Assembly: GCF_000420425.1 (NCBI RefSeq) | Contig: NZ_ATUX01000008.1 | Span: 1 to 64,000 of the forward strand | Origin: Schaalia vaccimaxillae DSM 15804 | GTDB lineage: Bacteria > Actinomycetota > Actinomycetes > Actinomycetales > Actinomycetaceae | Direction: 5' to 3' | Length of the DNA: 64,000 nt | Part shown: in pieces, positions 28,586 to 52,429 of the stretch | How positions within the stretch are numbered: position 1 is the first letter of the stretch | Layout of the letters: the number at the start of each line of letters is the position of its first letter | Translations under genes and position numbers: made by a program | The notes under the pieces: model-generated | Databases searched by the model: none | What the model was told of the DNA's origin: nothing | Seen by the model: the letters and a program-made list of their open reading frames with translations, nothing else

Positions 28586-29734
28586 ATGCCCAAACGCATT
28601 ATGGTCATTTACGGTACTCGTCCGGAAGCTATCAAGTGTGCGCCGGTGATCAAAGCAATCGATGCCCATCCAGAATTAGAAGCAATTTCGGTTGTCACTG
28701 GACAGCATAAAGAGATGTTGTCACAGGTTAACAGCCTTTTTGAGATTACCCCTGATGCAGATTTAGATGTATTTGAGCAAGGCCAGAGTCTCAACCATCT
28801 TTCTGCGAAGATCCTTGATCGCCTCGACCCGATTTTTGACCAGTTTCATCCTGATGCAGTCCTTGTGCAGGGCGATACCACAACTGTCGCAATTGCAGCC
28901 ATAGCTGCCTTTTACCGAGAAATCCCAGTGGTCCACCTTGAAGCCGGACTGCGTTCAGGAAATTTAAAGTCTCCCTTCCCTGAAGAGGCGAATAGGAAAC
29001 TCGTCGGCCAGATCGCTGACCTACATCTGGCTCCAACCAAGCAGTCACGCGAAAATTTGTTGCACGATGGTATCCCTGCTGATCGTATTACTGTCACAGG
29101 GAATACTGTGATTGATGCATTGCATTACACGACCGAAAAGCCGGTTTCGTACCTCGATCCTCGGGTTGCTGAGGCCGTTTCTTCAGACCGACGCATTCTT
29201 CTGGTGACTGCGCATCGGCGCGAGAACTGGGGCGATCCGATGGTGCAAATCGGCAAGGCTTTGGGCGAAATTGCTTCAAAGTATCCCGATGATCTCATCA
29301 TCTACCCCGCCCACGGAAATCCAGCTGTACGCGCAGCAATCATGCCGTCTTTAGAAGGCCTAGAAAACGTGATTGTGACTGATCCACTTGACTACTTACA
29401 GTTCTCTAACCTCATTAATGCTGCCCACGTTGTTCTCACAGATTCGGGTGGCATTCAAGAGGAAGCTCCCAGTTTGGGAAAGCCTGTACTTGTTCTTCGG
29501 GAAAACACCGAGCGGCCCGAAGCAGTCACCGCAGGCACCGTCAAGCTCATCGGCACTGACCGCGAGGTCATTGTCTCCGAAGTCTCAATCTTGAAGTCCT
29601 CACAGGAGGCTTATGCCGCAATGTCAGAAGCAGTCAACCCTTATGGTGATGGAAAAGCGGCCGCGCGTTCTGCTGCCGCTGTGGCCGAGCTTCTTGGGGT
29701 CGGCACACGTTTGGACGAGTTCACAGCGGACTGA
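28586..29734 (+). CDS. wecB: UDP-N-acetylglucosamine 2-epimerase (non-hydrolysing)
   Basis: A 382-residue enzyme of normal length converting UDP-GlcNAc to UDP-ManNAc. Signature blocks are YGTRPEAIKCAPVI (start), VVTGQHKEML, VQGDTTT, HLEAGLRSGN, GNTVIDAL, VTAHRRENWG and LTDSGGIQEEAPSLGKPVLVLRENTERPEA. ATG at 28586 has a GAAGG box about 10 nt upstream. Its base composition is visibly more A+T-rich than the ribosomal genes beside it. It supplies ManNAc units to the surface glycan and, with wecC, ManNAcA. It is the only plus-strand gene in this half of the glycan locus. Confidence 0.96.
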   Translation: MPKRIMVIYGTRPEAIKCAPVIKAIDAHPELEAISVVTGQHKEMLSQVNSLFEITPDADLDVFEQGQSLNHLSAKILDRLDPIFDQFHPDAVLVQGDTTTVAIAAIAAFYREIPVVHLEAGLRSGNLKSPFPEEANRKLVGQIADLHLAPTKQSRENLLHDGIPADRITVTGNTVIDALHYTTEKPVSYLDPRVAEAVSSDRRILLVTAHRRENWGDPMVQIGKALGEIASKYPDDLIIYPAHGNPAVRAAIMPSLEGLENVIVTDPLDYLQFSNLINAAHVVLTDSGGIQEEAPSLGKPVLVLRENTERPEAVTAGTVKLIGTDREVIVSEVSILKSSQEAYAAMSEAVNPYGDGKAAARSAAAVAELLGVGTRLDEFTAD

Positions 29735-31658: not shown

Positions 31659-34391
31659 TTAAGGAATGCGTAAAGGCCGCGATCCGAATGCCTGACGTTT
31701 CCCATCAGCGCTGGGATCTGACCAATAGATGCGGAATCGATAAGTACCCGGCGCATCAATTTGAAGCTCCGCATAGCCGCCATGCAAAGGAATGACATCA
31801 CTGACATTGTCCTTGCCCTTCATGAGGCGCACGCTTCCTTTTGCCTTAGGCGGCATATCAACAACGATGCCCAATCTCTTTTCTTCCGCATCAAAGGAGA
31901 CTGATGAAGCCAAGATCGCTGGGTCAGCATCGGTTGGTTTACCAATCCCATCCTGCAGAAATGCAGCGAATGCCCTACCGAGCTGTGAATGTATGAGCCC
32001 CGGAAGATGCAGAAGTTTCGGCGCGTATCCGAGTTCGACCAGCGCGTCATGCAGGGGCACCGCATGACTTCGGTAGTGCCAATCTCTTTCACCGATGAGC
32101 TGAGTAATCTGAGTGTGACGAGTACCAGATCGCAGAAGGGCATGGATGAATTGGTTGAGCCATCTAACAGATGAACCAGACGAATCCCCCGCAATCGTCT
32201 CAAGAATATTTGGATGCTCTTTCGCCAGAAAATCACCAACACGGTATTGAGGCGCCCCGATGAGTACCCGACTCACGCCCAAGGAAAGACCGTGTAAGAG
32301 CGCAGCCGTTCCCCCTTTTGAGGAGCCGATTGTCATCACTCGTGAATTGTCAATACCAAGTCTGTGGATGGTGCGCCGTATTAGGGCCTGGACTGATCGA
32401 AACTCAGCAAGTTTTCTGTCCGTCGCAAGATAATATGCCCCTTGCGGCCCGAAATCATCCAGAATAAAGAGCTTTGCCCAATTATTTTTAGCCAACGAGC
32501 GCCGATAGTTGAATGTAAAATCTCCTTGTGGCACGAGGGCCGAGAAAACAACTTGTAAACCGGCGATTTTGTTATCGGCTGGAGATTCGAGGAGGTAGTT
32601 GACAGGCTTCTCAGCGAAGAAAGTTTCCCAACGAGAAGCGGGCGTCACTCCCCTATCAAATATTTGGAACTTACGGGTTCTCAGCTCCCAATCGACTGAA
32701 ATTTCAGCCGCGAAATACTCGAGAACCAAACAGGTCGATGGGATATGCTCCCCCATCTTCGGGAACTGCCACCCTTGGACAGGCGCCTTTTCTCGTCCTC
32801 TAACTGTGGTGACTGAATCTGGCGCGGTTCCACTCCATGTGAGTTCTGCGAGTTTTGTAATCCCGTCCGTATCAAAGAGCTCAATGCCCCAGCCGCGAAC
32901 TATGCATGTTATTTCTTCACCAAAATGCCAGAGCATCTGATAATGGTGTTCCTCGTCAGAAACGACCTTATCGTGCACACAGAATCCGCGCTCCTGCGTG
33001 TGGAGGGTGCTCGTCACTCTTCTATCCCAACGAACTCCCTCGTAGCGAGTGGTGTGCCCGGTGACCGAAAACTCCTCGCCTTCACCGCCCAGATCCTCCA
33101 TCCAGGTCTGGTCAAACTTATCGTCGGTTCTGGGCAATCCCAGACCATCGACGATCAGGGTATTGTGCGCAAAACTCGAATACGCATATTTTGTGAACGG
33201 ATCGGTGTACTGGTATCCATTTGGTCCAGCCTCGCGAATCAGTTCCTTTTGACCGTCTCGAAAATAGACACTGAGTTCATCGGAATGTTTATGGTAGTTC
33301 GCGTTATAAGCTGCCGAGAAGAGAAGGTAAGCGGAGTCTGCCGAGGCCCAAGATTCCCTCGCAATTGCGTACCCGGATTTGGGAGCAACAAACTTTTTAT
33401 CTGCAGGAAGTTTGCCCCTCTCACCATGAGTTACTGCTCCCAGAAATTGACGTTCACCAAATATTGTCACAGCTCGACCCGCTGGAACGCGTCCGGAGCG
33501 GGTGTCTGAAATTGGCGGGAATTCTCCCGTAGGGGTGACGATGTGGGCCGCGAAAGAGTCAGCTTTGATCAAAAGCTCTTCAAAGGCTGCGACGAATTCC
33601 TGCCTACCTGTCACTTCTGCATAGGCTTCAATCTTCGCTAAATAGTTGGAAACGAGAAGATGATACGTCGGATTATTCTCAACATGGATTCCTTCGCTCG
33701 TAAATGCGAAAGAAAAATATGATTCCAACCGCGTAAAGGCAAGCTCCTCGAGCTCAGGAACACCACCAGTGGGATCACTGAACGCTGAGTAAACCAATAA
33801 AGCAACATCTTGAAACATGCCATGGTTGTTCAACCCTGCATAAAAGTCAGGCTGGCAGAGCTTCGCAATGTCATTAGAAAGAATCTCACGAAGCTTCGCG
33901 GACATATCGGGACGTTCTTCCAGATCGTCAGCGAATACTTCCATGAAGTGAGTAAGGATCATTGCGCGCTGAGCCGTAGTCTCGTCATGGAATGCCATAG
34001 ATGTTGAATCAGCGCTAGCGTTCATCCAGGAATCGCACAGTCCGTGGAGTCGCTTCAACAGATCGTCGATTTGCGTAGCATCAAGGCTCGCATAAGCGCC
34101 GATCCACGATCTCAGAAAGAACCATCCATGAGTTTGACGGCCATCACTACGCGGCGCCGATGCATGCCAGATAGCGCCCCCGTCGTAAGGAACCCATCTG
34201 TTTCCTTCAAGGCGAATCAGATCCTCCTTAAGGAAACGCTGAACATCACGGACCGCCACATCGGCTTTAACTACCGTCAAAAACAGTTCAGTTGCTGTGC
34301 TTTTCCGTGAGATCCCAGCCAAAATTTCTCCATTGCAATAACAAATACGCGAACTCTTTATCGGAGGGTCAATGCACCATACCTTAAGCAA
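31659..34391 (-). CDS. Heparinase II/III-family protein fused to an alpha/beta-hydrolase-like domain
   Basis: A 910-residue protein. Residues about 60-600 have the heparinase II/III architecture: an alpha-helical toroid, HVENNPTYHLLVSNYL (catalytic Asn/Tyr/His region), then a beta-sandwich with HKHSDELSVYF and YSSFAHNTLIVDG. Residues about 610-800 look like a serine-hydrolase/Asp2-type domain (nucleophile elbow IGSSKGGTAAL, late His in LPGLIHSQLG). About 100 beta-rich residues end it. No signal peptide is seen, so it may act inside the cell on polymer or precursor. The start is uncertain: TTG at 34391 overlaps the glycosyltransferase stop by 8 bp; another TTG about 26 codons in has GGAG upstream. 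It is co-transcribed with its neighbours on both sides. Confidence 0.72.
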   Translation of the reverse strand: MLKVWCIDPPIKSSRICYCNGEILAGISRKSTATELFLTVVKADVAVRDVQRFLKEDLIRLEGNRWVPYDGGAIWHASAPRSDGRQTHGWFFLRSWIGAYASLDATQIDDLLKRLHGLCDSWMNASADSTSMAFHDETTAQRAMILTHFMEVFADDLEERPDMSAKLREILSNDIAKLCQPDFYAGLNNHGMFQDVALLVYSAFSDPTGGVPELEELAFTRLESYFSFAFTSEGIHVENNPTYHLLVSNYLAKIEAYAEVTGRQEFVAAFEELLIKADSFAAHIVTPTGEFPPISDTRSGRVPAGRAVTIFGERQFLGAVTHGERGKLPADKKFVAPKSGYAIARESWASADSAYLLFSAAYNANYHKHSDELSVYFRDGQKELIREAGPNGYQYTDPFTKYAYSSFAHNTLIVDGLGLPRTDDKFDQTWMEDLGGEGEEFSVTGHTTRYEGVRWDRRVTSTLHTQERGFCVHDKVVSDEEHHYQMLWHFGEEITCIVRGWGIELFDTDGITKLAELTWSGTAPDSVTTVRGREKAPVQGWQFPKMGEHIPSTCLVLEYFAAEISVDWELRTRKFQIFDRGVTPASRWETFFAEKPVNYLLESPADNKIAGLQVVFSALVPQGDFTFNYRRSLAKNNWAKLFILDDFGPQGAYYLATDRKLAEFRSVQALIRRTIHRLGIDNSRVMTIGSSKGGTAALLHGLSLGVSRVLIGAPQYRVGDFLAKEHPNILETIAGDSSGSSVRWLNQFIHALLRSGTRHTQITQLIGERDWHYRSHAVPLHDALVELGYAPKLLHLPGLIHSQLGRAFAAFLQDGIGKPTDADPAILASSVSFDAEEKRLGIVVDMPPKAKGSVRLMKGKDNVSDVIPLHGGYAELQIDAPGTYRFRIYWSDPSADGKRQAFGSRPLRIP

Positions 34392-37300
34392 GGCCTTGGA
34401 TAGCGCGCATCAAACGCTGAATGACCACATCTTGCCCATAGAGCTCACGGATAACGGCCGCATCCTGACCAGAGTCCCGCTTCCTGCCTGCCAAAATCTG
34501 GTTGGCCATTTGCTCAGCGGAAGACACCAACCATTCACGCGGATAGAGAAGATCGGAACCCGCCCACGCGAATGAAACGGGCGTCGCTCCCGAAGCCGCT
34601 CCATCAGCGATCGTGTAGTGGAAGGACTCAAAATCTGACACGGACAGAGCAATGCCGATCTTGCGATACCACTGAGCCATGTCCGACCCGTGGGGATCAA
34701 AGGTCACGGCATCAGGGAAACGTGCATTCAGCCTGTCAATCCGACTATATACCTCTTCGTAATACTCCATTTCCTCGGGCCTATTTGCCATCCACTCGTA
34801 CTCTTCAGGTCGTTTGCCCTTAATGAAGAGCCGATAGGTGGAATCAGTTTTCAAAAGTCGCTCGAGGACGTCGACCGCCAAATCAAGACGCTTGCGTTCT
34901 GGAACAATTCCAACAAGACCCAGATTATGCTCAGCACCATCAACCTTGGGCAGTTCCAGGTCTTCTACTGCAACCATATTCGGAATGACCACGGTTTTCT
35001 CTTCAGGCACACCGTGACTGATGACTGCGGCTTGTCGGATCAATTCGCCAATGAAAATGTACTGATCTACGCAGGCGTGATTGGCCCGCCGCATATATGG
35101 CCTGAAAATCTCTTGGAGGTGAATCCTGCAGAGAAGGCGCTGATGCGGACGCACATTCTTGGAATACCATTCAAGATTCCCAAGTCCCCACTCACACCAA
35201 ATGACATCTGCTTCCTCAAGCAGCTGCAGCGACTTGGTCTCATCGTGTCCGCTGTGTCCATGCCACTGATCGATAAGGACACGATTACCGTTCTTCTCCA
35301 AGGCTTCCAGTAAGGGCTGCATGAACTTCAGATCATGGCCTGCAACCAGAACAGTTTGCGCAAAAGAAGACTGCACATACGTTTCAACAGGCTCCGTGTA
35401 TTCTCGCTGGCCAGATAAAGGTGGCATTAGCAATGAGATTCCAGCTTCGGACTGCTGATCCAACCGGTGCCCGATAGCATCAAGGTCATCTCCCGTGGTT
35501 ACCGAGACGATTTCAGGTCGAATTCCGCCCGAGATACCAAAGCGGACAAGTTGGGTTAGTGGACCCTGATCATCGGCGGTAGTAGCTGCGATGGCTGGCC
35601 AGTGCCCATAGCGCGAGGACGACAAAAGATCCTCGAACCACGTACGCGGCAAACCAAGGGAGAATCTACCCATCCAATCAAGTCCGACGGGATCAAAGGA
35701 GGAGTGCTCTACGACAGCAATTCCGTACTTCTCAAGAAGAGTTCTCCCGTCCTCGTCAATACTGTGAGCGAAAACAGATAGAGGAACTACTGACTGCTTC
35801 AAAATCTCTTGTGCGGCCGGCTGATCGAGATTATCTACGATGAGGCCATACCTGAATTGGACGGTTGCTGGTGCAAAATCTAATCCAAGGGTTTGACCGA
35901 TGATTTTGAGAGCCGAATCAATGGTGTGAGAACGGTGGATCGCTCGTAACTGACGCCATGCCTCACGCAAACGTTCCTCGCCTGACGCCGTCCATGCCCT
36001 CAGATAGAGATCGACTTCTTCGCTGTTTTCAGCAACCGGAATCAAGCCGGAGAAAACTTCGTTGATTCCGCGGCCAGGACCCGATAGTACGACACCCCCA
36101 GAAGCGGCAATTTCTACGACCCTGCGGGAGAACATTGTGGGAGATTCTGTAACGGAGTTCACATTAATATGTGCAAGATGGCTTTTGTACGAAGCAAGAA
36201 CCTCGTCATAAGGAATGGCGCCACGAGAATATTCACGCAAACCTTCAGGAAACTGATAAGGCGAATCTGGATTATCGGCCTGGCGATCAAAAATTGTTAA
36301 TCCGTAAGGTTTACTAGCCTCAAGAAGTGTGCGAAGCACCTGAGAACGGTCCTTGTACCTATCACCGTAGTACGTACCTGCGTAGGCAACGGTCGAGGTA
36401 AATTCTCTGGTTGTTGGTAGAGGATTGTGAATCTTTGGTTGCGCATAGAAGGGCAAGGACGAGACGGTCTTGGTAACAGCACCAGGTAGCCCAAGATAGT
36501 CGGGGATGAGGTTTGCATCCGTCGTCAAGATGTGATCACACAGAGCAGCCGTGGCTTTAAAGCGCTCGAAATGCACCGGATCTTCTTTATTCCAGAACAC
36601 GGAAGGAATCCCACGGCTTCTGCATTCACAAAGCAGCGCAGAAATATCCTTGAACTCTTCATCTTCGTAGCGACCCACTCCTCGATGCCACTGGCCTGAA
36701 TTGCCTCGCCAAGCCGACTCAATGAATACAAAGTCCAGGTTCTCCGCTTCAAGTTGAGTCGCCCAGTTCTGCCGATCAAGAATGACAAGATCTGTCGAAG
36801 GGGCAAGAGTTTTAGTTGTGAACTCATCAGCGATCAAGCCGATTCGCGCGCGGCGATGTATCTGATGATTGGAGCGTCGGTCAGCACTCTGAGCTGCAGC
36901 TAGTGCGGCATGTTGAGACACCATGGTGGTGCCGATAATGTTCCAACGTCGTTCGTCAAGAGTCCACAGACGTGCCTGGCGTCCAATGATGTGCCTTAGA
37001 TCATCGTCGACGATCAGTTGTTCCAAGGCCGATGCTAGTTCGCCACTATCATCTGCCGTGAAAAGCAGCGCCCGTTCCTGAAACTCTCCCGCCAAATCAC
37101 GATGGGGGGCCACGTCCGACATGACAACGGCCTTCATTGCACTAAAGGCTTCAAGAGGCTTAAGCGGCGAAACCATCTCTGTCACAGCCAAACTTCGACG
37201 CGGAATCGGCATGATGTCAAAGGTGCTCAAGAGTCGAGGCATTTCATCGATTGGCAACCGACCAAGGAACTTAATCCTGTTTCCTGCCGACTGTCCGGCC

Positions 37301-38988
37301 TTACGTAAAGCATCTTCTTGATTACCTGAACCCGCAAAGACCACCTGGTGTGCGACTCCGCGCTGTGCAAGAAGGCCGGACGCCTCGATAAGTAGATCGA
37401 GGCCTTCGTATGGAACCATGCTGCCGGCAAAACCAATAACGGGCACATCAGTACGGATGCCTTTAGCCTTCGCATACTCTTCATCTCGAGGTAGCGGCAA
37501 GAATACATCTGTGTTCACGCCATTGGGAACGACACTGATCTTATCCGCATCAATTCCACGTTCAATCAAACTCTCACGCACTTGGCGTGTAATGGCAAAA
37601 ACATGATCAGCTTCTGAGGCAACCAAAGTTTCCATGTCCTCAAGAGTCTGAAAATGTTCCGACCCTGCCCAATCAGGCTTAGCAGCCGCTTGCGACAGTT
37701 CCCAGAACCCTCTCACCTCGTAGACAAAAGGAACCCCCAGGCGGCGTGCAGCGATGAGCGCCGACAAACCTGTCACATGGTTCGATGCTGCTTGGATAAC
37801 AGCGGGCCTTTGGACGAGCCCCTCACGCACAAAAGCGTCAGCGGCCTCAATGACGTACCTATCCAACGGCTGCCTGCCCCATGACGAGCCTGGAATATGG
37901 ATGTAGTCGATGCCATCAATCTCGATAACTGAACGCTCCTGGAGGGGGCGTTCACGATCCACAGGCGTATCCCAGGGATAGCCCGCACGAGCCACGACGG
38001 TCAGGTCCATCCCTGCTGAACGAATACCAGCGGCCACTCCCCTGGTGCGGGTCGAATACCCATTCGAGTTGAACGCTGGTGTTGAATGTACGCAGTACAT
38101 CAAACGGTTGCGTTCAGGGTTAAAAGCTGCGCTGGCAGTCCTGGGAGGAATTGCCTCTTGAATATTCTTCAAGCGTTCAATCCCAAAAATAAGAGGAATC
38201 ACCAGCGCATCACGTTGGGAAAGCTGGTCGACGTACTCTTGATTTTCATTGACGAGTTTGACGCACTCAGACAGATTTCCCAGTTGGTACCACTCGCGGT
38301 GCAAAAGACGCACAAAAGTACCAGGCGAAGGATTCTCCGCAAAATCCTCTCGGAGCTGATCAACTGACCATTCCTTATAGTTGGGTCGAGCTGGTTGGCT
38401 TGTCCGCACATCAGACATCGTCTGTTTGCTTGCTGAGGTCGAGGGCGCCTGGGCTGGCTTTACCAATGGTTGAGCAGCAACCGGAGCCTGTGTCGTGGTA
38501 GCACTCTGCGCAGCCGCGATCGGCTTTTGCGCGGTTTCCTCAGATGCCATGGTCTGCGTTGATCGTGCTCCATCTTGATTTGTGAAGGCACGGCGAACGA
38601 CGCGACCAGGCTCAAGCAAGGTATTGCCAAGCCGATAGGAACGAGACCCTCGCACCCTCCTAAGATCGGCTCGCAGGCGTATCTCTTCCTGTTTGCTCTT
38701 CTTGAGTTCTAGCTGACTGTCAGCAAGACGTTTCTTGAGGTCACGACGAATATCTTCGCCTTCGACACGCTTGGCTTTGTGCCAACGAACATCCTTTTGA
38801 AGCTGCAGCTTCTCCCTCTCAAGGGCCTCGACTCGCTTTTCTAGCTCAATGGCAGCGTCGCGGAATCGCTGCTCACGAGGGTTCAAGTTAGTTGCACGCC
38901 GCTCATCCTCGTTTTGACGATCCTGCGCCAAAGTTCGCAGACGAACCAAATCATCCAGGCTGCGTTTTTCATCTTCAAAAGTCGTCAT
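34384..38988 (-). CDS. Giant three-module glycosyltransferase
   Basis: A 1534-residue protein. Residues 1-115 are a charged coiled coil; 115-200 are a Gln/Ala/Thr/Ser linker. About 295-700 is a GT4-type transferase (LMYCVHSTPAFNSNGYSTRT; ISVVPNGVNTDVFLPL; PLKPLEAFSAMKAVVMSD). About 720-1090 is a CgeB/DUF3880-like transferase (LDFVFIESAWRGNSGQWH; FWNKEDPVHFE; VVEIAASGGVVLSGPG). About 1130-1534 is a further GT-B-like module (LLCRIHLQEIFRPY; VGIVPERKRLDLAVDVL; ADGAASGATPVSFAW). It probably builds several linkages of a repeat unit on the cytoplasmic side. ATG at 38988. Upstream is wecC (57 nt); downstream the heparinase-like gene overlaps. The middle module is clearly paralogous to the protein at 45141-47087. 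Confidence 0.82.
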   Translation of the reverse strand: MTTFEDEKRSLDDLVRLRTLAQDRQNEDERRATNLNPREQRFRDAAIELEKRVEALEREKLQLQKDVRWHKAKRVEGEDIRRDLKKRLADSQLELKKSKQEEIRLRADLRRVRGSRSYRLGNTLLEPGRVVRRAFTNQDGARSTQTMASEETAQKPIAAAQSATTTQAPVAAQPLVKPAQAPSTSASKQTMSDVRTSQPARPNYKEWSVDQLREDFAENPSPGTFVRLLHREWYQLGNLSECVKLVNENQEYVDQLSQRDALVIPLIFGIERLKNIQEAIPPRTASAAFNPERNRLMYCVHSTPAFNSNGYSTRTRGVAAGIRSAGMDLTVVARAGYPWDTPVDRERPLQERSVIEIDGIDYIHIPGSSWGRQPLDRYVIEAADAFVREGLVQRPAVIQAASNHVTGLSALIAARRLGVPFVYEVRGFWELSQAAAKPDWAGSEHFQTLEDMETLVASEADHVFAITRQVRESLIERGIDADKISVVPNGVNTDVFLPLPRDEEYAKAKGIRTDVPVIGFAGSMVPYEGLDLLIEASGLLAQRGVAHQVVFAGSGNQEDALRKAGQSAGNRIKFLGRLPIDEMPRLLSTFDIMPIPRRSLAVTEMVSPLKPLEAFSAMKAVVMSDVAPHRDLAGEFQERALLFTADDSGELASALEQLIVDDDLRHIIGRQARLWTLDERRWNIIGTTMVSQHAALAAAQSADRRSNHQIHRRARIGLIADEFTTKTLAPSTDLVILDRQNWATQLEAENLDFVFIESAWRGNSGQWHRGVGRYEDEEFKDISALLCECRSRGIPSVFWNKEDPVHFERFKATAALCDHILTTDANLIPDYLGLPGAVTKTVSSLPFYAQPKIHNPLPTTREFTSTVAYAGTYYGDRYKDRSQVLRTLLEASKPYGLTIFDRQADNPDSPYQFPEGLREYSRGAIPYDEVLASYKSHLAHINVNSVTESPTMFSRRVVEIAASGGVVLSGPGRGINEVFSGLIPVAENSEEVDLYLRAWTASGEERLREAWRQLRAIHRSHTIDSALKIIGQTLGLDFAPATVQFRYGLIVDNLDQPAAQEILKQSVVPLSVFAHSIDEDGRTLLEKYGIAVVEHSSFDPVGLDWMGRFSLGLPRTWFEDLLSSSRYGHWPAIAATTADDQGPLTQLVRFGISGGIRPEIVSVTTGDDLDAIGHRLDQQSEAGISLLMPPLSGQREYTEPVETYVQSSFAQTVLVAGHDLKFMQPLLEALEKNGNRVLIDQWHGHSGHDETKSLQLLEEADVIWCEWGLGNLEWYSKNVRPHQRLLCRIHLQEIFRPYMRRANHACVDQYIFIGELIRQAAVISHGVPEEKTVVIPNMVAVEDLELPKVDGAEHNLGLVGIVPERKRLDLAVDVLERLLKTDSTYRLFIKGKRPEEYEWMANRPEEMEYYEEVYSRIDRLNARFPDAVTFDPHGSDMAQWYRKIGIALSVSDFESFHYTIADGAASGATPVSFAWAGSDLLYPREWLVSSAEQMANQILAGRKRDSGQDAAVIRELYGQDVVIQRLMRAIQGLA

Positions 38989-39045: not shown

Positions 39046-40299
39046 TCAAACAGCGTGGCGAAAAACCCCGCGCGTGTCGATGAGAGTTTTATCGGCAAAA
39101 ACCGCACGATCAAGAGCTCGAATCTCTTTATGATCCACCAACAAGACAATGATGTCAGCCGCCTCAATTGCCTCATGGAGATCAGCCAGTTCAAGGTTTC
39201 CAATACCTTCAAGTTTCTTCGGCAAAATATCAATATTTGGCTCGACTGCCAGAACTTTTGCTTCCGGCAGCTGCTCCGAAATCTCCTTCGTAATGTCAAG
39301 AGCCGGAGACTCGCGAAGATCGTCAATGTCGGCCTTGAATGCCAAGCCCAACGCTGCGATAACGGGAGACTCAATGCCCTGAACAGCCTCTTGCACCTTG
39401 TCAATCACATATTGCGGCTTAGAGTCATTAACTTCGCGTGCGTCGCGAATGATCTTCGCGTCGTTGGGAAGAGCTGAAACAATGAACCACGGATCCACCG
39501 CAATGCAGTGACCTCCAACACCCGGGCCAGGGTTGAGGATATTGACGCGCGGATGTCGATTAGCCAACTCAATGAGTTCCCATACATCGATGCCAAGCTT
39601 TTCACACAAGATCGAGAGTTCGTTTGCGAAAGCAATATTGACGTCACGGAATGAATTTTCGGTGAGCTTAGCCATCTCAGCGGTCTTGGCATCGGTAAGA
39701 ACCAATTCGCCCTCACAGAACGTCGCATAAACGTCGCGAGCCATCCTGGCTGCTTCGGGGGTGACGCCGCCGATGATTCGCGCATTCGACACCATTTCGA
39801 TCATGATGCGTCCGGGCAGAACCCGCTCCGGGCAGTGAGCGAAATGCACGACTGGCTTACAATCCGCCCCGTCAATCGACAGATCCGGACGTTCAGCGAG
39901 AATCACATCCGCCATGTGCTCTGTAGTTCCAGGAGGCGAAGTGGACTCAAGAATCACCAATTCATCGCCAACCAACTGAGGCGCAATGTTACGAGCTGCC
40001 GTTTCGATATACGACAAATCGGCTTCGTGATGCTGCCCTTTAAAAGGAGTGGGGACCGCAACGATATAAACATCCGAATGCGGGGTGTCTTTCTGTGCGG
40101 AAAGTAAACCGGACTTCACAACGTCGGCAACAACCTCTCCTAGTCCTTCTTCAACGAAAGGCAATTCACCGCGATTTACAGCATCCACATGACGGTCAGA
40201 AACATCCACGCCGTAGACCCGAGCACCTGCTCTTGCAAGCACTGCAGCGGTGGGCAAACCAATATATCCAAGACCAATGACACAGACAGACAACGACAT
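39046..40299 (-). CDS. wecC: UDP-N-acetyl-D-mannosamine dehydrogenase
   Basis: A 417-residue nucleotide-sugar dehydrogenase oxidising UDP-ManNAc to UDP-ManNAcA. NAD site VIGLGYIGLPTAAVLARAG starts at residue 7, followed by VAVPTPFK, LESTSPPGTTEHM, the central helix ELANRHPRVNILNPGPGVGGHCIAVDPWF with the catalytic Cys, and C-terminal LGLAFKADIDDLRESPALDI. Family length is normal. It is the first gene of a minus-strand run (wecC, giant GT, heparinase-like, synthase remnant). The partner wecB is 10 kb away on the other strand, so ManNAcA is expected in the surface polymer. Confidence 0.95.
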   Translation of the reverse strand: MSLSVCVIGLGYIGLPTAAVLARAGARVYGVDVSDRHVDAVNRGELPFVEEGLGEVVADVVKSGLLSAQKDTPHSDVYIVAVPTPFKGQHHEADLSYIETAARNIAPQLVGDELVILESTSPPGTTEHMADVILAERPDLSIDGADCKPVVHFAHCPERVLPGRIMIEMVSNARIIGGVTPEAARMARDVYATFCEGELVLTDAKTAEMAKLTENSFRDVNIAFANELSILCEKLGIDVWELIELANRHPRVNILNPGPGVGGHCIAVDPWFIVSALPNDAKIIRDAREVNDSKPQYVIDKVQEAVQGIESPVIAALGLAFKADIDDLRESPALDITKEISEQLPEAKVLAVEPNIDILPKKLEGIGNLELADLHEAIEAADIIVLLVDHKEIRALDRAVFADKTLIDTRGVFRHAV

Positions 40300-40416
40300 C
40301 TTTTAATACTCGATTCGTGTTGAATAGGTTCCCATTCGATTGGCCACAATGGGATTAATTCGAAGCGTACCTGAAAATTAGTAGGGGCCCAATGTTTCTG
40401 ACCTGTTGGAAACAGA

Positions 40417-40454
40417 AAAGCTCGCCTGCCCTATTTTCAGGGCAGGCGAGCTTT
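40417..40454 (-). terminator. Terminator of rplK-rplA
   Basis: Perfect 16-bp arms AAAGCTCGCCTGCCCT (40417-40432) and AGGGCAGGCGAGCTTT (40439-40454) with a 6-nt loop lie 21 nt past the rplA stop, and a TTTTCTGTTT stretch follows on the minus strand. Confidence 0.9.
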
Positions 40455-40475
40455 AGGAATGTAGGAGCCGCCAAT

Positions 40476-41192: not shown

Positions 41193-41261
41193 TCTGCTTC
41201 TTCTCCTTGCAGTCGTGGGATTCGGGCAGCGCCTGCCCTACCACTGGGGTTTAAGTCTGGA

Positions 41262-41693
41262 TCAGTCCTCGACCGTGATGCCCATGGAACGGGCGGTGCC
41301 GGCAATGATCTTGGCCGCAGCCTCGACGTCATTGGCGTTGAGATCAACCATCTTGGCCTGACCGATTTCGCGAGCCTGATCCATGGTGATGGAGCCAACC
41401 TTGACGGTGTTCGGGGTGCCCGAACCCTTCTGGAGGCCAGCAGCCTTCTTGATCATCTCGGAAGCCGGAGGAGTCTTGAGGACGAACGTGAAGGAACGAT
41501 CCTCGTACACGGTGATCTCGACCGGAACGATCGAGCCACGCTGGGACTCGGTAGCGGCGTTGTATGCCTTGGTGAACTCAACGATGTTCACGCCGTGCTG
41601 GCCCAGAGCAGGGCCGACGGGCGGAGCGGGTGTGGCGGAACCGGCTGCGATCTGAAGCTTGATCAGGCCGGTGACCTTCTTCTTCGGTGCCAT
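41262..41693 (-). CDS. rplK: 50S ribosomal protein uL11
   Basis: A 143-residue uL11, part of the GTPase-associated centre. [40 protein letters not shown] at the N-terminus and the C-terminal rRNA-binding domain ([44 protein letters not shown]) are both complete. It follows nusG after a 156-nt gap, which may contain its own promoter or leader. Confidence 0.98.
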
Positions 41694-43186: not shown

Positions 43187-44113
43187 TCACTTTTTCCGGT
43201 GGAAAGGGGCAGAACGAGCAACAACTGAGGAGTCTGCATCGGAAAGAACAAACTCCTCTGGCGAGAACTTATCTTGAGCATCAGCTAGAAGGCGAGCAGC
43301 CTCCTCGTGTTTGCCTTCAGCAATCTTCCACGCCCACAAACGGTAGGCCCGAGCCGTCTCCCAAGCTGGCCCGTCTGCAACCAGACGGCCCTGATGCATC
43401 CAGATGGCGCGGGTACACATTTCCTCGATAGTTTGAGCCGCATGAGACACCAAAAAGACGGTTCCTGCAGCTTGACGAATCTCTGTTAAAACACCTTCAG
43501 ACCGCTTCTTGAACGCCGCATCGCCAGTGCCCAGTGCTTCATCAATGAGCAGGATATCAGGCTGCGAAGCCGCATTAATGGCGAACCGCAGCCGAGCGCC
43601 CATGCCTGAAGAATACGTTCTCATCGGTCGATAGATTGAGTCGCCAATTCCAGCCAACTCTGCAATCGCAGGAATTGCCTCCTTCATATCTTGGGAAGAC
43701 AACCCCATTGCAAGGCATCCAAGTTCGATATTACGTATCCCGGTTAGGTCAGGCACGAGGGCAGCCCCGACTCCCAACAACGTTGGCTGCGAACGAGCCA
43801 AGATTCTGCCACTAATGGGCGGCTCAACTCCGGCGATCATCCTGAGCAGAGTCGATTTGCCAGATCCATTTAATCCCAGGATGCCAACAGACTCTCCTGT
43901 CCGCACCACCATTGAGACGTCATTGACGGCGCGCACATTGACTTTGATTGGACGGCGAGACAAGCGGTGGAGGAGTTTTGCCCCCACACTCGCGGTCTTA
44001 ATAGCTTCACGATCAGTCGTCTCGGTTCGGTACACCTGATGGACGTGGTCGACCACCACGGAAGGTTCACCGAGTCTGACCTCAATTCCTTTCTTGTACG
44101 CCTCGTCTTCCAT
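43187..44113 (-). CDS. Polysaccharide/teichoic-acid ABC exporter ATPase
   Basis: A 308-residue ATPase of the Wzt/TagH/KpsT type. Walker A GLNGSGKST, signature YSSGMGARLRFAI and Walker B ILLIDEALGTGD are intact. VRAVNDVSMVVRTGESVGILGLNG is typical of the export family, and a 55-residue C-terminal tail follows. ATG at 44113 is preferred (AGAGGG 5 nt upstream) and overlaps the permease stop by a few bases; ATGs at 44131 and 44143 are alternatives. With the permease it would flip or export a lipid-linked glycan made by the neighbouring transferases. Confidence 0.9.
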   Translation of the reverse strand: MEDEAYKKGIEVRLGEPSVVVDHVHQVYRTETTDREAIKTASVGAKLLHRLSRRPIKVNVRAVNDVSMVVRTGESVGILGLNGSGKSTLLRMIAGVEPPISGRILARSQPTLLGVGAALVPDLTGIRNIELGCLAMGLSSQDMKEAIPAIAELAGIGDSIYRPMRTYSSGMGARLRFAINAASQPDILLIDEALGTGDAAFKKRSEGVLTEIRQAAGTVFLVSHAAQTIEEMCTRAIWMHQGRLVADGPAWETARAYRLWAWKIAEGKHEEAARLLADAQDKFSPEEFVLSDADSSVVARSAPFHRKK

Positions 44114-44114
44114 C

Positions 44115-45041
44115 TCAACCCTCTCGTCCATAAGACTCTTCATGCGACCAGAAAATGACGAATCCCAGGACAAAGGTTCCCAGTACCCAAGCCAGAACAT
44201 ATGCCCACTGAGATGTTTCGGGGATAGTGTCATATACCAGGCATTGGCGCATGAGATTGAGCACCTGATAGCCCGGATTGGCCGTCATTAACGCCATGAC
44301 AGCGGGGTGGTCTGCGAATCTGTCGATCGAAAAGAAAATACCCGAACCATAGAACCAGAAACGGGATAATAGCGGCCAAATAAACTTCAAGTCAGGAATA
44401 CGGGCGGTCAGACTGGCAGTGATCAAAGCTAAGCCGATCGAAAATATCCATACAAGGACCACCACCGGCACAACAAGAATCCATGTTGTGCTCGGTTTGA
44501 CGTGGGGCGGAACCACCATGATGAATAAAATGGTTGCCAAAAGTACAGGGAGAAAGTCGAAAAGCCCTCGCAAACTCCATGAGAACACCAATGATGCTCT
44601 CGGGAAAGAAAAGGCACGCAGCATATTTTTTGCGCCTGGCAGGATCGTGCCGCCTGAGTTCAATCCGGCTTGCATCAGGCCAAAGGTATTCATCCCGACA
44701 ACCAGATAGGCCAAAAAATTATCGATGCCCCGTCCCGTTTGCAAAAGCAAACCAAAGATCGCAAAGAACACCATTGCATCCAAAAACGGCCGAAGAATCA
44801 GCCATGTTTTTCCCAAGGTGGTTCCGCGGGAGGAAGAGAATGCCTTGGCGCGTGAATCCGCAAGAATAAAGAATCTACGTTGCCAGATCTTGCGGCAGTA
44901 CTCGAAAATTCCTGGCCGCGCTGAGACCGGATGCAGACGCCAAGTGGGCACTGTTTTAACTCTGCTTTGACCGTGTTCGATCAAAGCAGCGGCCACCCAC
45001 TGACCTAGGTCATCAAAGGATTCAGATCGTTGGCTCATCAT
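44115..45041 (-). CDS. Polysaccharide ABC-2 exporter permease
   Basis: A 308-residue ABC-2-type permease (TagG/Wzm/RfbD-like). A cytoplasmic N-terminus of about 75 residues is followed by the SRGTTLGKTWLILRPFLDAMVFFAIFGLLLQTGRG block, typical of O-antigen/teichoic acid exporters, then about six membrane segments. The PGYQVLNLMRQCLVYD region near 255 is also characteristic. It lies directly upstream of, and overlaps, its ATPase gene. ATG at 45041. Confidence 0.92.
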   Translation of the reverse strand: MMSQRSESFDDLGQWVAAALIEHGQSRVKTVPTWRLHPVSARPGIFEYCRKIWQRRFFILADSRAKAFSSSRGTTLGKTWLILRPFLDAMVFFAIFGLLLQTGRGIDNFLAYLVVGMNTFGLMQAGLNSGGTILPGAKNMLRAFSFPRASLVFSWSLRGLFDFLPVLLATILFIMVVPPHVKPSTTWILVVPVVVLVWIFSIGLALITASLTARIPDLKFIWPLLSRFWFYGSGIFFSIDRFADHPAVMALMTANPGYQVLNLMRQCLVYDTIPETSQWAYVLAWVLGTFVLGFVIFWSHEESYGREG

Positions 45042-45140: not shown

Positions 45141-47087
45141 TCAGAAGAAGACATGCTCGTTCCCCTCCCCAAAAGTGGTCAGATGAGAGGCTGCAAGAAT
45201 CTCCTCATTCGGAATACGCCACGTGTGTTCTTGAGTTGCCAATCGACGTTGAATAAAACCAAAACGATCTGACGAGAAAACTTTGCCGCCCACTTGACGC
45301 ACGTCCAATAGAAACTGGGAATCTTCACCGGTGGTGCGACTGCGGAAAGGAATCTCCTCGAAGGTACTTTTCCAGCCCACAAAAGTAGGGCCAGCAACGA
45401 AAGACGCCCATGAGAACTCAAGCGTAGGAAAACGTAAACACAGGGCGTTCTGGTCAGCCAAATGCAAGTAATGAGCTCCCTTACCTACCAGCTCTGCGTT
45501 CGAATATTTCAACGCGGCAATCTGATCGAAGAGATAGTTCTGCCCGTACAGGTCATCGTCGTCAATCTTTGCGATGACATCGCCGTCAGAACATTCAATG
45601 ATTCGGTTGTAACACTGCCCAAGTGTCCAGCCGGAGTCCCCGACCACCCAGTTGATTTCCATCCCTGAGTCTTTCGAAGCATCAACGATTGCTTTCTCCG
45701 GCTCGAACCCGTGCGTGAGAATAACAACTTGGAGGTCAACGTCCTTTTGTTGTGCCATTTGGCCGAGAACATGGCTTAGTTGATGCGGGCGATTCGTTGA
45801 GATCATTGCCGTTGCTGACGGCATCGTCGTCACGCGCTCAGTGAACCCGATCTTCTGGAGAACACTGTTAATCCGATGCTCAAAAGTATGTTTTTGCCAG
45901 ATACGGCGTTGAGCCAAATGAACCATACGGTCGCGTAGCTCAGGTGAGCGATCCAAAGCACGGATCCAGCGAGACGCTTCTTCTCGAGTAGCGACCTGAA
46001 TGACTTCGTCGGGGCGAAAGAAAGTCTCAACAGCCCTTGAAATAGCGCTAATAACTGGTGTACCACACGCAGACACCTCGAAGATTCTGCGCGCACACAT
46101 AGATGAGCTATCCACAACTGAATTGACGTTGAGAATCGCTGCGTAGGATCGATTCGCTGTCAACATCTGTTGATAGTTCAATTCTCCACGCACATGTCCA
46201 TAGTATGGTTCAGGGAATTGGTACGCTTCGGAGACGTCACGAAAGCGACTAAAAATATCCAAAGGGTAACGGAGCTTACGCTGAGCATCCAACGCTCCAC
46301 CCAGGAGAATTTCCATCTGCTTCCCGCGCTCAGGGTATTTATCCCGAAAATATGTCCCAGCGAAGGCAACAGATCGACGATGCTGAGACGTCATACCAAT
46401 TGGGACAATTGGGTTATGAATCGCAGGCTGTGCAGCAAATGACATGACCCCCACCCGATCATGGCCTAATCGCTCACGGTAGCGATCAACACGATCCTCA
46501 TCCGTGGTAAAAACCCAGTCGAAAATTCGCGCAGACTCAATGAAGTCCTCAAAGTGCGCAGGATCTTCTTTATTCCAAAAAATAGTGGGAATGCAACGTT
46601 TTTGACATTCTGCTACTAGAGCCTTAAGAGTCTGCGAGGGCCCTTTCGAAGACGTTATCTGATACTGCCATCGATCTTGATTGCCGTGCCAAGCGGATTC
46701 AACAAAGAGCAAATCCAAGTTCTCGGTGTCGAGCTGTGTACGCCAAGCCTTTGGATCAAGCTCTACTTGTTTCCATTCGTAGCCCAAAGCGCTCAACGTG
46801 AAATCATCAGCAATGATCCCAGCAGCGAGATCGCGCCGCCCCCTCCAAGAATCAACGTCTGGCAGAGGCCACTCATCGAAGGATATTTTTATTCGTCCTT
46901 TTGAGGTCAATCGCCTCGGCTGGAGCACCCGCGCGACTCCCGTATTTTCGACTTGGCGTGCCTCGAATTCTTGGAGAGCACTGAATCCTCCGTGACGTAA
47001 ATGCCACAAGCGCTTGCGCCAGAGCAATAGATCCACGGTTCCTCTTCTCTCCACGTCAGCTAATGAGTGCAATATACAATCATTCAT
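45141..47087 (-). CDS. Two-module glycosyltransferase (CgeB/DUF3880-like plus GT2-like)
   Basis: A 648-residue protein. Residues about 60-420 match the CgeB-like module of the giant transferase at 34384-38988: LDLLFVESAWHGNQDRWQ, TIFWNKEDPAHFEDF, VAFAGTYFRDKYPER, ILNVNSVVDSS and FEVSACGTPVIS. Residues about 430-648 are GT2/GT-A-like: AMISTNRPHQLSHVLGQMAQQ, LGQCYNRII and the DxD-type AKIDDDDLYG. So two linkages may be formed by one polypeptide. It is the first gene of the minus-strand exporter group, 99 nt before the permease, and divergent from 47179. ATG at 47087 has only a weak ribosome site. Confidence 0.83.
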   Translation of the reverse strand: MNDCILHSLADVERRGTVDLLLWRKRLWHLRHGGFSALQEFEARQVENTGVARVLQPRRLTSKGRIKISFDEWPLPDVDSWRGRRDLAAGIIADDFTLSALGYEWKQVELDPKAWRTQLDTENLDLLFVESAWHGNQDRWQYQITSSKGPSQTLKALVAECQKRCIPTIFWNKEDPAHFEDFIESARIFDWVFTTDEDRVDRYRERLGHDRVGVMSFAAQPAIHNPIVPIGMTSQHRRSVAFAGTYFRDKYPERGKQMEILLGGALDAQRKLRYPLDIFSRFRDVSEAYQFPEPYYGHVRGELNYQQMLTANRSYAAILNVNSVVDSSSMCARRIFEVSACGTPVISAISRAVETFFRPDEVIQVATREEASRWIRALDRSPELRDRMVHLAQRRIWQKHTFEHRINSVLQKIGFTERVTTMPSATAMISTNRPHQLSHVLGQMAQQKDVDLQVVILTHGFEPEKAIVDASKDSGMEINWVVGDSGWTLGQCYNRIIECSDGDVIAKIDDDDLYGQNYLFDQIAALKYSNAELVGKGAHYLHLADQNALCLRFPTLEFSWASFVAGPTFVGWKSTFEEIPFRSRTTGEDSQFLLDVRQVGGKVFSSDRFGFIQRRLATQEHTWRIPNEEILAASHLTTFGEGNEHVFF

Positions 47088-47178
47088 GCATCCAAGTTCT
47101 CAATGGGATGCTTGTTTGCATCGCCCATTGCCTTCACTCACCTGCTACCGTCGGAGCACGAAAGAAGGGGTGAACCGC

Positions 47179-48039: not shown

Positions 48040-49305
48040 ATGCGAGTCCTGGTCATCGCGCAGACCTGGGAGCCCGAAGAAGGGATCCCCCAACGCCGCT
48101 GGGCGTGGCTCACCCGTCAATTGACACAATCTGGCCACGAAGTTCATGCGGTTGTTCCCCCACCCCATTACCCGACAGGCCACCTGCTTTTCAGCGAAGA
48201 CGAATACCAAATCGGCGCAGTGGCCGAAGGAAAAAACGGGGAAGTCATCCACAGGACCGCCTACCTCGGACACGACTCCACCCTGTATTCACGCATGCGC
48301 AATCAAGGGCGCATCATGACGTCACAGATCGAAATCGGTCACAAAGTTGCCGCCGAGTGGCGCCCCGACATCATTGTTGCAACTGCTCCTCCCCTGCCCA
48401 CCGCAAACGCAGCCGACGTCATCGCCTCGCGCGCCCGAGTCCCCTTCGTCCTCGACCTGCGCGACGCCTGGCCCGACCTACTCAAGCACATGAACGACTG
48501 GGCTCCCACCACCGCCCGACCAGCACGCCAAGGCACCGCCTCAAACTTCAAGAACATGGTTTTTCGAGGAGTGGCCACCGTTGGCGGCCATGCACTAACC
48601 CACGCCATAGGCAAGGCAGCCGGAATCGTTACCACCACCGAATCCTTCACCGAAGTCCTGCGTAATCGCGGCGTCGAACAAACCATGACGCTACGCAATC
48701 TTGGAACTCGACGAAACTTCACACTGGAAGCACCCAACCACACCTCGGGATTAAACGTCCTTTACGCCGGCACCACGGGACGAGTACAAGAACTGTCCAA
48801 CGCTATTCACGCCGTTGCAGAAGCCCGCGAACGTAACCTAGACGTCCGCATGAGAATCGTAGGTTCTGGCGCTCACCTCAAAACATTGCGCCGAAACGCC
48901 CAAGCGCTAGAACTGCCCATCGAGTTCACCGGCCGACTCCCCTTCGACCAAATCCTGCCCCATTACGAGTGGGCAGACACAGTGTTGATCCACCTGCAAG
49001 ACTGGAAACCGATGGAATACACGGTGCCTTCCAAGCTCTACGAAGCATTAGAAATCGGACGCCACATTTCTCTGTCAGTCGCAGGCGAAGCCGCCCAGAT
49101 CGTCACCTCAGCAAGAGCCGGAGATGCCGTTCCTCCAATGAACCCAACGGCACTGGCGGATCTGTGGGAGAGACTTATCGCGGAACGGAGTCTGCTCAAC
49201 ACAGTGGGCAGGGGCCTTGAGTGGCTTGAGAAACAGGGAACGCCAGAAGATAACGCCGCACGCTTCGTCGATTTCCTCGAGAAAATTCGCGAAAACGCCT
49301 GCTAA
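48040..49305 (+). CDS. GT4-family glycosyltransferase
   Basis: A 421-residue GT-B enzyme. The N-terminal acceptor domain starts MRVLVIAQTWEPEEGIPQRRWAWL and has VVPPPHYPTG and DLRDAWPDL. The C-terminal donor domain has VLYAGTTGRVQELSNAI, RIVGSGAHLKTL, EFTGRLPFDQI and YTVPSKLYEALEIG. This resembles WbuB/WcaI-type transferases of O-antigen and colanic acid synthesis. ATG at 48040. It overlaps the next gene by one base (TAATG), so both are one unit. Sugar donor unknown. Confidence 0.88.
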   Translation: MRVLVIAQTWEPEEGIPQRRWAWLTRQLTQSGHEVHAVVPPPHYPTGHLLFSEDEYQIGAVAEGKNGEVIHRTAYLGHDSTLYSRMRNQGRIMTSQIEIGHKVAAEWRPDIIVATAPPLPTANAADVIASRARVPFVLDLRDAWPDLLKHMNDWAPTTARPARQGTASNFKNMVFRGVATVGGHALTHAIGKAAGIVTTTESFTEVLRNRGVEQTMTLRNLGTRRNFTLEAPNHTSGLNVLYAGTTGRVQELSNAIHAVAEARERNLDVRMRIVGSGAHLKTLRRNAQALELPIEFTGRLPFDQILPHYEWADTVLIHLQDWKPMEYTVPSKLYEALEIGRHISLSVAGEAAQIVTSARAGDAVPPMNPTALADLWERLIAERSLLNTVGRGLEWLEKQGTPEDNAARFVDFLEKIRENAC

Positions 49306-51086
49306 TGAAAATCCTTCAAGCCGTATCGAACACGCTATCGCGCGCCCCGTTGCTCGGCAAAGTGGTTCACCAGATGATCAGCGAAGACCCGGCACTCTTT
49401 GCTGTGCAGTTGCTCCGGCGCACACCCAGCCACCTCAGGGATGCCCTGTCGGCCCTGCCTGAGCCCAGCCACAAAGGGTCAACGATCCGTTCGACGTGGT
49501 TGATGATGCTTGACCGACGCCAGCAGCTCCAAGACGAACTCGCGTCTGCCGGTGAGCAATCGTCGTCTGGATTGCTTAACAAAATTCGCGTCCAAATTGA
49601 GTCCGAACTACCGCCCTCGGCCAGCGCCAACGATCGGGCGCATCAACTATGGGAAAGCGGAAACCTCGACGAAGCCATTGCATTAGCGCAGCCGCCGCTT
49701 CGCGGGATCCTCGAATCTCGTCTTCGAGTGCTCACCCCCGGACGCACCCTCGTCCTACCCAGCAGTTACGACGAGGACGAGCCACCTACCCCGCGCAAAA
49801 CCCCCGCGCCTGCCAGGCCAGCCGGCGATTCGTCCTCGCCTGTGCGCGTCCTTCACTGTTTAACAAACTCCCTGCCGTGGACAAACTCCGGTTACGCCCT
49901 GCGCTCCCACCAGGTGTTACTCGCTCAGCGGGCCGTCGGCCTCGAAGTTGAAGCGATCACCCGGCTTGCCTACCCGCTGACAATCGGTAGGCCGTGGGCG
50001 GGAACAGTCGACGAGGTCGACTCGATCCGCTACCGCCGCTTGCTGCCCGCCAGTTTGCCCAGGTACGAGGACGCGCGCCTCGCCCTGCACACAAAAATGC
50101 TGGCCGACGTGGCGCACAGTTATAGCCCGGATGTTTTGCACACGACAACAAACTTCCACAACGGCTTGGTGACCCGAGCTGTTGCAGAAAAACTCGATAT
50201 CCCGTGGGTGTATGAGATGCGCGGTGAACTGGAAAAATCCTGGGTCGCACGCCGCCCTCGACACCAAGAAACCACAGCGTTAGCCTCCCAGCGCTACCAG
50301 CTGATGCGTGCCCGAGAAACCGAAATGGCACTGGCTGCCGACGCCGTCGTCGCACTCTCGCACCATCAAGCAGACTCCCTGGTTGAACGCGGCATCCCCG
50401 CCGCCAAAATCCACGTCATACCCAACGCAGTCGACGCCGACCTACTCGACGTGCCACGCAACCCCCAGTCCGCTCGACGAAGCCTCGGCCTAACGGAGCG
50501 TGCATGGGTAGGGACGGTGAGCGCCCTCGTCGACTATGAAGGTTTGGACACACTGGTGCGCGCAGTGGCTTCTCTACGCAAGCGCGGAGTCGATATTGGG
50601 CTGGCCATCGTGGGCGATGGCGTGTCACGTGAATCCCTCATCCAGCTATGCCGCAACGAAGGACTGAACGTCCATACCGGTCCGCTCGGAGAATCCTCCA
50701 CCAATGCCGATGCCGTGTTTCCTGGAAAAGTTGCCCCTCTTAATGCCCCCAGCTGGTATCAGGCGCTTGACGTGATGGCAATTCCCCGCCGAGATACCCC
50801 CGTCACCCGCGCAGTGACCCCCATTAAAGGCTTGCAGGCGATGGCTTTGGGCATCCCGCAAGTTGTCTCAGACCTGCCTGCCCTGGTTGAAGTCGGTGCA
50901 CGCGACGGACAAGGACTTGCTGTTTCTCCTGGCGATGCCAATGCGCTTGCTGATGTCATCGGTCAGATCATCGCGGACACTGACCTTGCTGAGTCGCTCA
51001 GTTCGCAGGCCCGCAAAGTTGCCACAGGCCGAACCTGGTCAGCCAATGCAGCCGCCTATTCGCAGCTCTACTCGTCCCTTCTCTAG
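49305..51086 (+). CDS. GT4-family glycosyltransferase with N-terminal extension
   Basis: A 593-residue protein. Residues 1-170 are a helical extension without recognised motif. From about 175 a GT4 fold follows: VLHCLTNSLPWTNSGYALRS, DIPWVYEMRGELEKSW, IHVIPNAVDADLLDV, GTVSALVDYEGLDTLVRAV and PIKGLQAMALGIPQVVSDLPALVEV. It is recognisably related to the GT4 module of the giant protein at 34384-38988 (shared NSxGY start, VYExRG and xVPNxVxxD blocks). Translation is coupled to the preceding transferase. Confidence 0.88.
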   Translation: MKILQAVSNTLSRAPLLGKVVHQMISEDPALFAVQLLRRTPSHLRDALSALPEPSHKGSTIRSTWLMMLDRRQQLQDELASAGEQSSSGLLNKIRVQIESELPPSASANDRAHQLWESGNLDEAIALAQPPLRGILESRLRVLTPGRTLVLPSSYDEDEPPTPRKTPAPARPAGDSSSPVRVLHCLTNSLPWTNSGYALRSHQVLLAQRAVGLEVEAITRLAYPLTIGRPWAGTVDEVDSIRYRRLLPASLPRYEDARLALHTKMLADVAHSYSPDVLHTTTNFHNGLVTRAVAEKLDIPWVYEMRGELEKSWVARRPRHQETTALASQRYQLMRARETEMALAADAVVALSHHQADSLVERGIPAAKIHVIPNAVDADLLDVPRNPQSARRSLGLTERAWVGTVSALVDYEGLDTLVRAVASLRKRGVDIGLAIVGDGVSRESLIQLCRNEGLNVHTGPLGESSTNADAVFPGKVAPLNAPSWYQALDVMAIPRRDTPVTRAVTPIKGLQAMALGIPQVVSDLPALVEVGARDGQGLAVSPGDANALADVIGQIIADTDLAESLSSQARKVATGRTWSANAAAYSQLYSSLL

Positions 51087-52413: not shown

Positions 52414-52429
52414 TCCTCAGGAGGAAACG

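Follow-up and report, generated by a model that had tools for sequence, protein, structure and literature searches.

The stretch analysed here (the window) is the 64,000-nucleotide segment at positions 1 to 64,000 of contig NZ_ATUX01000008.1 of Schaalia vaccimaxillae DSM 15804, and the gene under study occupies positions 34384..38988 of its minus strand, as do all parts of the gene given below. The open reading frame (ORF) begins with ATG, contains no internal stop codons, and encodes a 1534-residue multi-module glycosyltransferase (GT), as judged from the ORF list, Pfam matches, and relatives in other genomes. It is one intact ORF, in which an N-terminal coiled coil is followed by three transferase modules. 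This architecture agrees with the initial annotation, which had described a single chain combining a coiled coil, a GT4, a CgeB-like, and a further GT-B-like module, and it is borne out by the intact ORF, Pfam, and AlphaFold2 folds; a fourth unit between modules 2 and 3 (residues ~1041–1189) had been overlooked. The modules, folds, conserved residues, gene neighbourhood, and co-occurrence described here were obtained by computation. The protein was modelled by AlphaFold2 in two parts, residues 1–700 (mean predicted local distance difference test score, 85.8; alignment of 38 sequences) and residues 700–1534 (mean score, 89.4; alignment of 40 sequences). In these models, the coiled-coil helix (residues 11–135; 38584..38958) is connected through a disordered linker (residues 136–195) to a helical segment (residues 205–288; 38125..38376), beyond which lie the transferase modules.

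Module 1 (residues 295–699; 36892..38106) is a GT4 module, matching GT4-type Pfam models above their cutoffs (PF13692, 1.4e-26; PF13579, 7.6e-25) and adopting a GT-B fold whose model matches the structures of MshA, GlgM, and BshA. Its closest NCBIfam family, TIGR04063 (PEP-CTERM/XrtA system glycosyltransferase), is likewise of the GT4 type, but the score of 238 bits over residues 301–684 is under the family cutoff of 442, and module 1 is therefore not a member of that family. Module 2 (residues 712–1036; 35881..36855) is CgeB-like, with a clear match to PF13524 (2.3e-21; 76.7 bits vs a cutoff of 25), and by our reading of the AlphaFold2 model together with the Pfam match, its order of strands and helices appears to be that of a GT-B fold. 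Module 3 (residues 1211–1534; 34387..35358) is a C-terminal GT-B module recognized from its model: no Pfam model, GT4 included, matches residues 1200–1534 at E 0.05, and the best sequence match in the PDB reaches only E 0.38. In the fold search with the 700–1534 model, the match list was filled by this C-terminal module, which superposes on GT4 enzymes (best Z-score, 28.2; root-mean-square deviation, 2.6; 303 residues aligned; PDB ID: 2jjm). The C-terminal modules of some relatives (loci L160, L169, and L172) match GT4 Pfam models weakly.

Residues of catalytic type are conserved in all three modules. In alignments containing the window protein, module 1 keeps R597, E604, K610, and E613 in 38/38 sequences, module 2 keeps R955, R956, and E959 in 40/40, and module 3 keeps K1366 and E1454 in 40/40. 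Their catalytic roles we presume from GT4 enzymes. Module 3 also carries an EX7E-type motif, E1454 being invariant (40/40) and position 1462 being Asp in 27/40 and Glu in 13/40; the motif is described in the available part of a published paper (PMC11666461). The initial annotation had proposed structure prediction as a check for three GT-B folds and intact active sites. None of the three named modules was found to lack a transferase fold, the GT-B fold being seen in the models of modules 1 and 3, and that of the CgeB module being recognized through Pfam and its strand/helix order.

The overlooked unit (residues 1041–1189; 35422..35868), delimited by profile comparison and AlphaFold2, is a small α/β unit resembling a degenerate GT2 domain. 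In hhalign, a profile built from 39 actinobacterial middle units gave a 125-column alignment with the GT2 halves of 25 CgeB-GT2 fusion proteins (probability, 39.6; E 3e-4), whereas nine other profiles gave a probability of 0.8 or less, the best of 40 column shuffles gave E 0.059, and the reversed profile gave E 0.84. The link to GT2 rests on this profile comparison with its controls and not on BLAST, in which the middle unit alone was not significantly similar to the GT2 half of the window's own CgeB-GT2 paralogue (best E 2.9). The CgeB half of that paralogue shares 37% identity with module 2. The DDDD sequence (a DxD-type metal motif) is kept in 25/25 GT2 halves of CgeB-GT2 proteins, of which 19 come from named genomes and 6 from others, but is absent from the middle units of the window protein and 39/39 listed fused relatives; other acidic clusters in L108 and L119 sit in a different context. 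The profile finds the middle unit in 38 of the 39 listed fused relatives. Related arrangements include a protein from a Dehalococcoidia metagenome-assembled genome (L151), consisting of CgeB, GT2 with DDDD, and the C-terminal module, and CgeB proteins of some Bacillota (L154, L156, L165, L169, and L172), in which a GT2-like stretch keeps YGxxYLxDL or a near form while DDDD is gone. Two results speak against a GT2 origin: the gammaproteobacterial middle units alone gave no clear match to GT2 (probability, 1.7), and Pfam GT2 models matched 0/28 actinobacterial middle units at E 1. Altogether, the middle unit is likely, though not proven, to be a GT2 domain that lost DDDD. It may serve as a non-catalytic scaffold left over from a CgeB-GT2 fusion, and a transferase domain conserved in an inactive state within a polymerase would be a good example of enzyme-to-scaffold evolution.

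An indication of function comes from the association of the protein with WecC, the UDP-N-acetylmannosamine (ManNAc) dehydrogenase. In the window, WecC (39046..40299, minus strand; NF008286, 563 bits, cutoff 459) ends 57 bases upstream of the gene, and the UDP-GlcNAc 2-epimerase WecB (28586..29734, plus strand; TIGR00236, 460 bits, cutoff 210) is also encoded, so that the two enzymes together would supply UDP-N-acetylmannosaminuronic acid (UDP-ManNAcA). Among 396 genomes of the order, WecC (counted at E 1e-110 or better) occurs in 92. All 23 genomes in which the C-terminal module is strong (E below 1e-38, reached in 23 of the 57 genomes having a match at E up to 1e-8) have WecC (Fisher 2.5e-16), within 20 kb in 19/23. 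Likewise, 78 of the 80 genomes with the CgeB module (E 1e-35 or better) have WecC (Fisher 3e-65), within 20 kb in 72/78. WecC accompanies CgeB in 56/58 genomes without a strong C-terminal module, and is found in 13/315 genomes with neither module; a C-terminal module without CgeB was seen in 1/23 genomes. Because the genomes are related, the Fisher values are optimistic, and physical linkage is the better argument. Both modules track WecC; the CgeB module is favoured as the ManNAcA transferase, an assignment that is not settled because Micrococcus sp. EYE_212 (genome G575, locus L160) has two C-terminal-type modules and a GT4 near WecC, with no CgeB match at E 1e-15. That locus is in itself a lead for Micrococcus teichuronic acid genes.

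A second association is found in Oceanisphaera litoralis DSM 15406, in which a four-transferase relative adjoins the sole WecC match of the genome at E 1e-40, with OPX- and ABC (ATP-binding cassette)-exporter genes alongside. A paper on O. litoralis KMM 3654 (Carbohydr. Res. 2012, 347, 178), cited in the reference list of PMC11641403, reportedly names a ManNAcA-containing O-specific polysaccharide in its title. The available part of another paper gives DSM 15406 and KMM 3654 as the same strain (PMC11943896). The conserved module set tied to WecC provides candidates for making ManNAcA polymers, including one in a strain with a published ManNAcA polysaccharide. Our literature search, which left most subscription journals outside, found no paper linking CgeB with ManNAcA or a capsule polymerase; no study of the full-length relatives was found, nor anything useful on ManNAcA in the genera carrying the protein.

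Thirteen full-length relatives with 37–51% identity were found among genomes of the order; together with the fused ORFs of the wider scan described below, they show that the architecture did not arise by chance. Apart from the window's own protein, no full-length match was found in the genus (35 genomes) or the family (213 genomes), the longest other match covering about one third, and the nearest full-length order-level relative (G348, 51% identical) belongs to another family. The G+C content is 0.50–0.53 in six 2-kb bins at 28–40 kb, compared with 0.54–0.65 in the preceding fourteen bins. The low G+C content, the lack of full-length matches in genus and family, and the nearest relative in another family together point to horizontal acquisition of the gene. 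A wider genome scan was confined to the best 76 loci of at least 576 stretches encoding relatives, which is not a random sample; three genomes are common to it and to the order-level relatives L080–L092 (L085/L126, L087/L133, and L088/L125). At least 39 complete ORFs (39/76 listed loci) carry GT4 first, then CgeB, then the C-terminal module. The listed hosts include the Actinobacteria Brachybacterium, Janibacter, Arthrobacter, Kocuria, Micrococcus, Cellulomonas, and Corynebacterium, and those among Gammaproteobacteria include Halomonas, Chromohalobacter, Marinobacterium, Oceanisphaera, and Rheinheimera. WecB or WecC is present in the locus DNA examined in 33/41 fused and 20/23 split loci among those listed.

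The modules have been rearranged repeatedly. CgeB and the C-terminal module are on separate ORFs in at least 23 listed loci, the C-terminal module precedes CgeB in the reverse-order fusions L144 and L148, and a second GT4 is present in 6/41 listed fused loci. Four separate C-terminal-module genes were scanned: those of L155, L169, and L172 start with another GT1/4-type module, and that of L160 has none in Pfam. In the census, L151, L156, and L169 were filed as having the C-terminal module only yet hold CgeB, which a weak GT2 match had excluded; L127 is cut at a contig end, and two more loci (L147 and L149) are incomplete. That a single module set has been fused and split time and again speaks for cooperation among its members, and since these modules sit fused or side by side in numerous genomes, their joint assembly of a repeat unit, suggested in the initial annotation, is plausible.

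The remaining genes around the ORF are largely those of a polymer locus. An ABC exporter is encoded by a Wzt-like ATPase (43187..44233, minus strand; family matches) and a Wzm-like membrane subunit (44115..45041, minus strand; PF01061), followed by the CgeB-GT2 paralogue (45141..47087, minus strand; PF13524, 73 bits; PF00535, 17 bits, under its cutoff of 23), two GT4-type glycosyltransferases assigned by family matches (48040..49305 and 49305..51086, plus strand), the second of which is related to module 1, and a LytR-CpsA-Psr (LCP) protein (52280..53551, plus strand; PF03816, 2e-39), the real start of which is perhaps further in. A DUF6270 protein (47014–47913, plus strand; 7.7e-50) recurs in related polymer loci. 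Directly after the gene, a mechanically called ORF (31659..34391, minus strand), which shares 8 bases with the gene's end, encodes a heparinase II/III-like protein whose tail is Asp2/XcbB-like; similar proteins occur in 18/41 fused loci. By eye it has no obvious signal peptide, and it might act on a uronic acid polymer within the cytoplasm, trimming or editing it. The 486-residue ORF at 29896–31356 (minus strand), with weak relatives recurring in related loci, has no Pfam or NCBIfam match and contains an LTGGFDSR stretch reminiscent of asparagine-synthase-type enzymes; it is a possible uronic acid amidase. The polymer locus borders the conserved nusG region, in which a 435-residue ORF (40392–41699, plus strand) is probably spurious because it has no family match and lies opposite the ORFs beside NusG, which we take to be ribosomal protein genes.

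From these features we infer the activity, donors, linkages, carrier, and order of action of the protein, and the roles of its coil and GT2 remnant, as follows. The protein would be a multi-module polymerase located in the cytoplasm, whose three GT-B modules act successively on one carrier-linked chain, adding the sugars of a repeat unit. The repeat unit would belong to a ManNAcA-containing, teichuronic-acid-like polymer, with the CgeB module as the favoured ManNAcA transferase; Wzm/Wzt would export the polymer, and the LCP protein could attach it to the wall. The coiled coil may mediate oligomerization or docking. We assign a probability of roughly 0.6 to the central claim, that the protein is the polymerase of such a polymer with the three modules acting in turn. 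Several observations weigh against it. The function is a prediction by computation, and outside this protein the window encodes more transferase domains, four in all across three genes, any of which could be the polymerase. WecC is found in only 12/34 genomes with a weaker C-terminal match, left out of the strong count, and neither WecB nor WecC is present in the examined DNA of 8/41 fused loci. The O. litoralis polymer is titled an O-polysaccharide, yet the exporters of the locus look capsule-type. Finally, the purified teichuronic acid synthetase of Micrococcus luteus has two subunits of ~52.5 and 54 kDa, according to the available part of its description (PMC3005890), in place of a single 1534-residue chain.

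The further transferases in the window also fit another explanation, in which the protein builds a short linker or adaptor of up to three sugars, once per chain, while the CgeB-GT2 neighbour and the two other GT4 enzymes make the repeat. Three modules would fit a trisaccharide adaptor, and some loci that lack the C-terminal module, for example L162, L163, and L164, hold CgeB-GT2 proteins together with WecC. However, in several of the 39 fused loci, such as L113, L115, and L116, a CgeB-GT2 protein is absent from the DNA examined, and therefore either the fused protein does both jobs there, or other enzymes do. We consider this explanation unlikely, but deserving of serious attention.

The N-terminal coil is a long, very charged helix (residues 11–113 and 116–135 in the model) with a modest heptad signal only, given that hydrophobic residues occupy 13 of 22 a/d positions within residues 38–113, whereas shuffled sequences average 9.5 (P about 0.01). 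It was detected by profile in 19/41 fused loci and by eye in 21/39 N-termini. Elsewhere it is replaced by a hydrophobic hairpin (L119, L120, L131, and L153), by an extra GT4 (6/41 fused loci), or, in Halomonas, by a short stretch; by eye, the two hydrophobic stretches of the hairpin N-termini resemble a membrane hairpin. This variable replacement suggests a role in docking or oligomerization. The initial annotation had also suggested that the coiled coil may control chain length, an idea that found no support: only ~10 residues precede the coil helix, with no catalytic module beyond it, and the coil is exchanged in relatives. A coiled-coil ruler was accordingly rejected as the principal explanation, on account of the absent distal terminator and the exchangeable N-terminus. 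It might still be argued that the coil sets chain length as in WbdD/WbbB, with the terminator on another protein, since coiled coil and GT modules lie inside an ABC-exporter locus as in ruler systems, and since polymerase and terminator can be separate proteins in Klebsiella pneumoniae O4, as stated in the available part of a paper (PMC11231755); nevertheless, the lack of a catalytic module past the coil and the variety of N-termini make this quite improbable. That the protein glycosylates a protein or decorates another polymer, without backbone synthesis, is very improbable given that the window encodes an exporter and an LCP protein and that the CgeB module is closely linked to WecC, even though GT family membership leaves the acceptor open and neither the degenerate unit nor the CgeB module has an assigned substrate.

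A broader proposal can be put forward tentatively, with odds somewhat below even: a widespread class of ManNAcA polymerases with three to four transferases would exist in Gram-positive and Gram-negative bacteria, in which CgeB represents a new clade of ManNAcA transferases, the C-terminal module is the first member of a new GT-B family, and the GT2 remnant is a conserved pseudo-enzyme holding the active modules together.

Comparison with multi-domain capsule polymerases, also proposed in the initial annotation, held for the presence of several GT modules per chain, as in WbdA, but not for a TagF-type domain. According to the available part of the literature, WbdA has two or three modules, each making one linkage, in an ABC-exporter pathway (PMC11231755). 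The WbdA of Klebsiella O3/O5, equal to that of E. coli O9/O8, resembles the window protein in having two or three GT modules per protein and an ABC-exporter pathway; compared by description, however, its modules are GDP-mannose mannosyltransferases, whereas the window protein combines CgeB, a GT-B module without Pfam match, and a GT2 remnant, with UDP-ManNAcA supply adjoining. Two traits of coiled-coil polymerase–terminator systems, several GT modules in one polymerase and an ABC exporter, are found in the window protein and its locus, respectively. Like the window protein, WbbB of Klebsiella O12 and ORF6 of O7 (polymerase, coiled-coil ruler, and terminator) join GT modules to a coiled coil in a single chain, but in the window protein, unlike in those systems, nothing catalytic lies past the coil. 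TagF-like capsule multienzymes such as Cps3D (PDB ID: 8qoy; rank 2 in the fold search) are similarly large multi-domain capsule polymerases with a GT-B module, but the alignment of 8qoy with the window model has a root-mean-square deviation of 31, and no Pfam family of the TagF type (polyol or hexose phosphate transferase) was found in the window protein at E 0.05.

Among teichuronic-acid-like systems, the M. luteus synthetase makes a ManNAcA polymer from UDP-sugars at the membrane, transferring Glc and ManNAcA alternately, and the paper describing it defers the operon of its genes to later work (PMC3005890); the use of UDP-sugars for a ManNAcA polymer is the likeness proposed for the window protein. 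The Streptomyces Utr pathway, described in the available part of a 2025 paper as unlike the Bacillus subtilis pathway, produces a wall polymer containing ManNAc3NAcA with the separate transferases UtrC, UtrF, and UtrG (PMC13274773). Compared by description, it makes an actinobacterial teichuronic-acid-like polymer, as is proposed for the window system, and differs in its separate transferases. Multi-module polymerases are already known, and the novelty here lies in the set of modules, in the GT2 remnant, and in the C-terminal GT-B module beyond the reach of Pfam.
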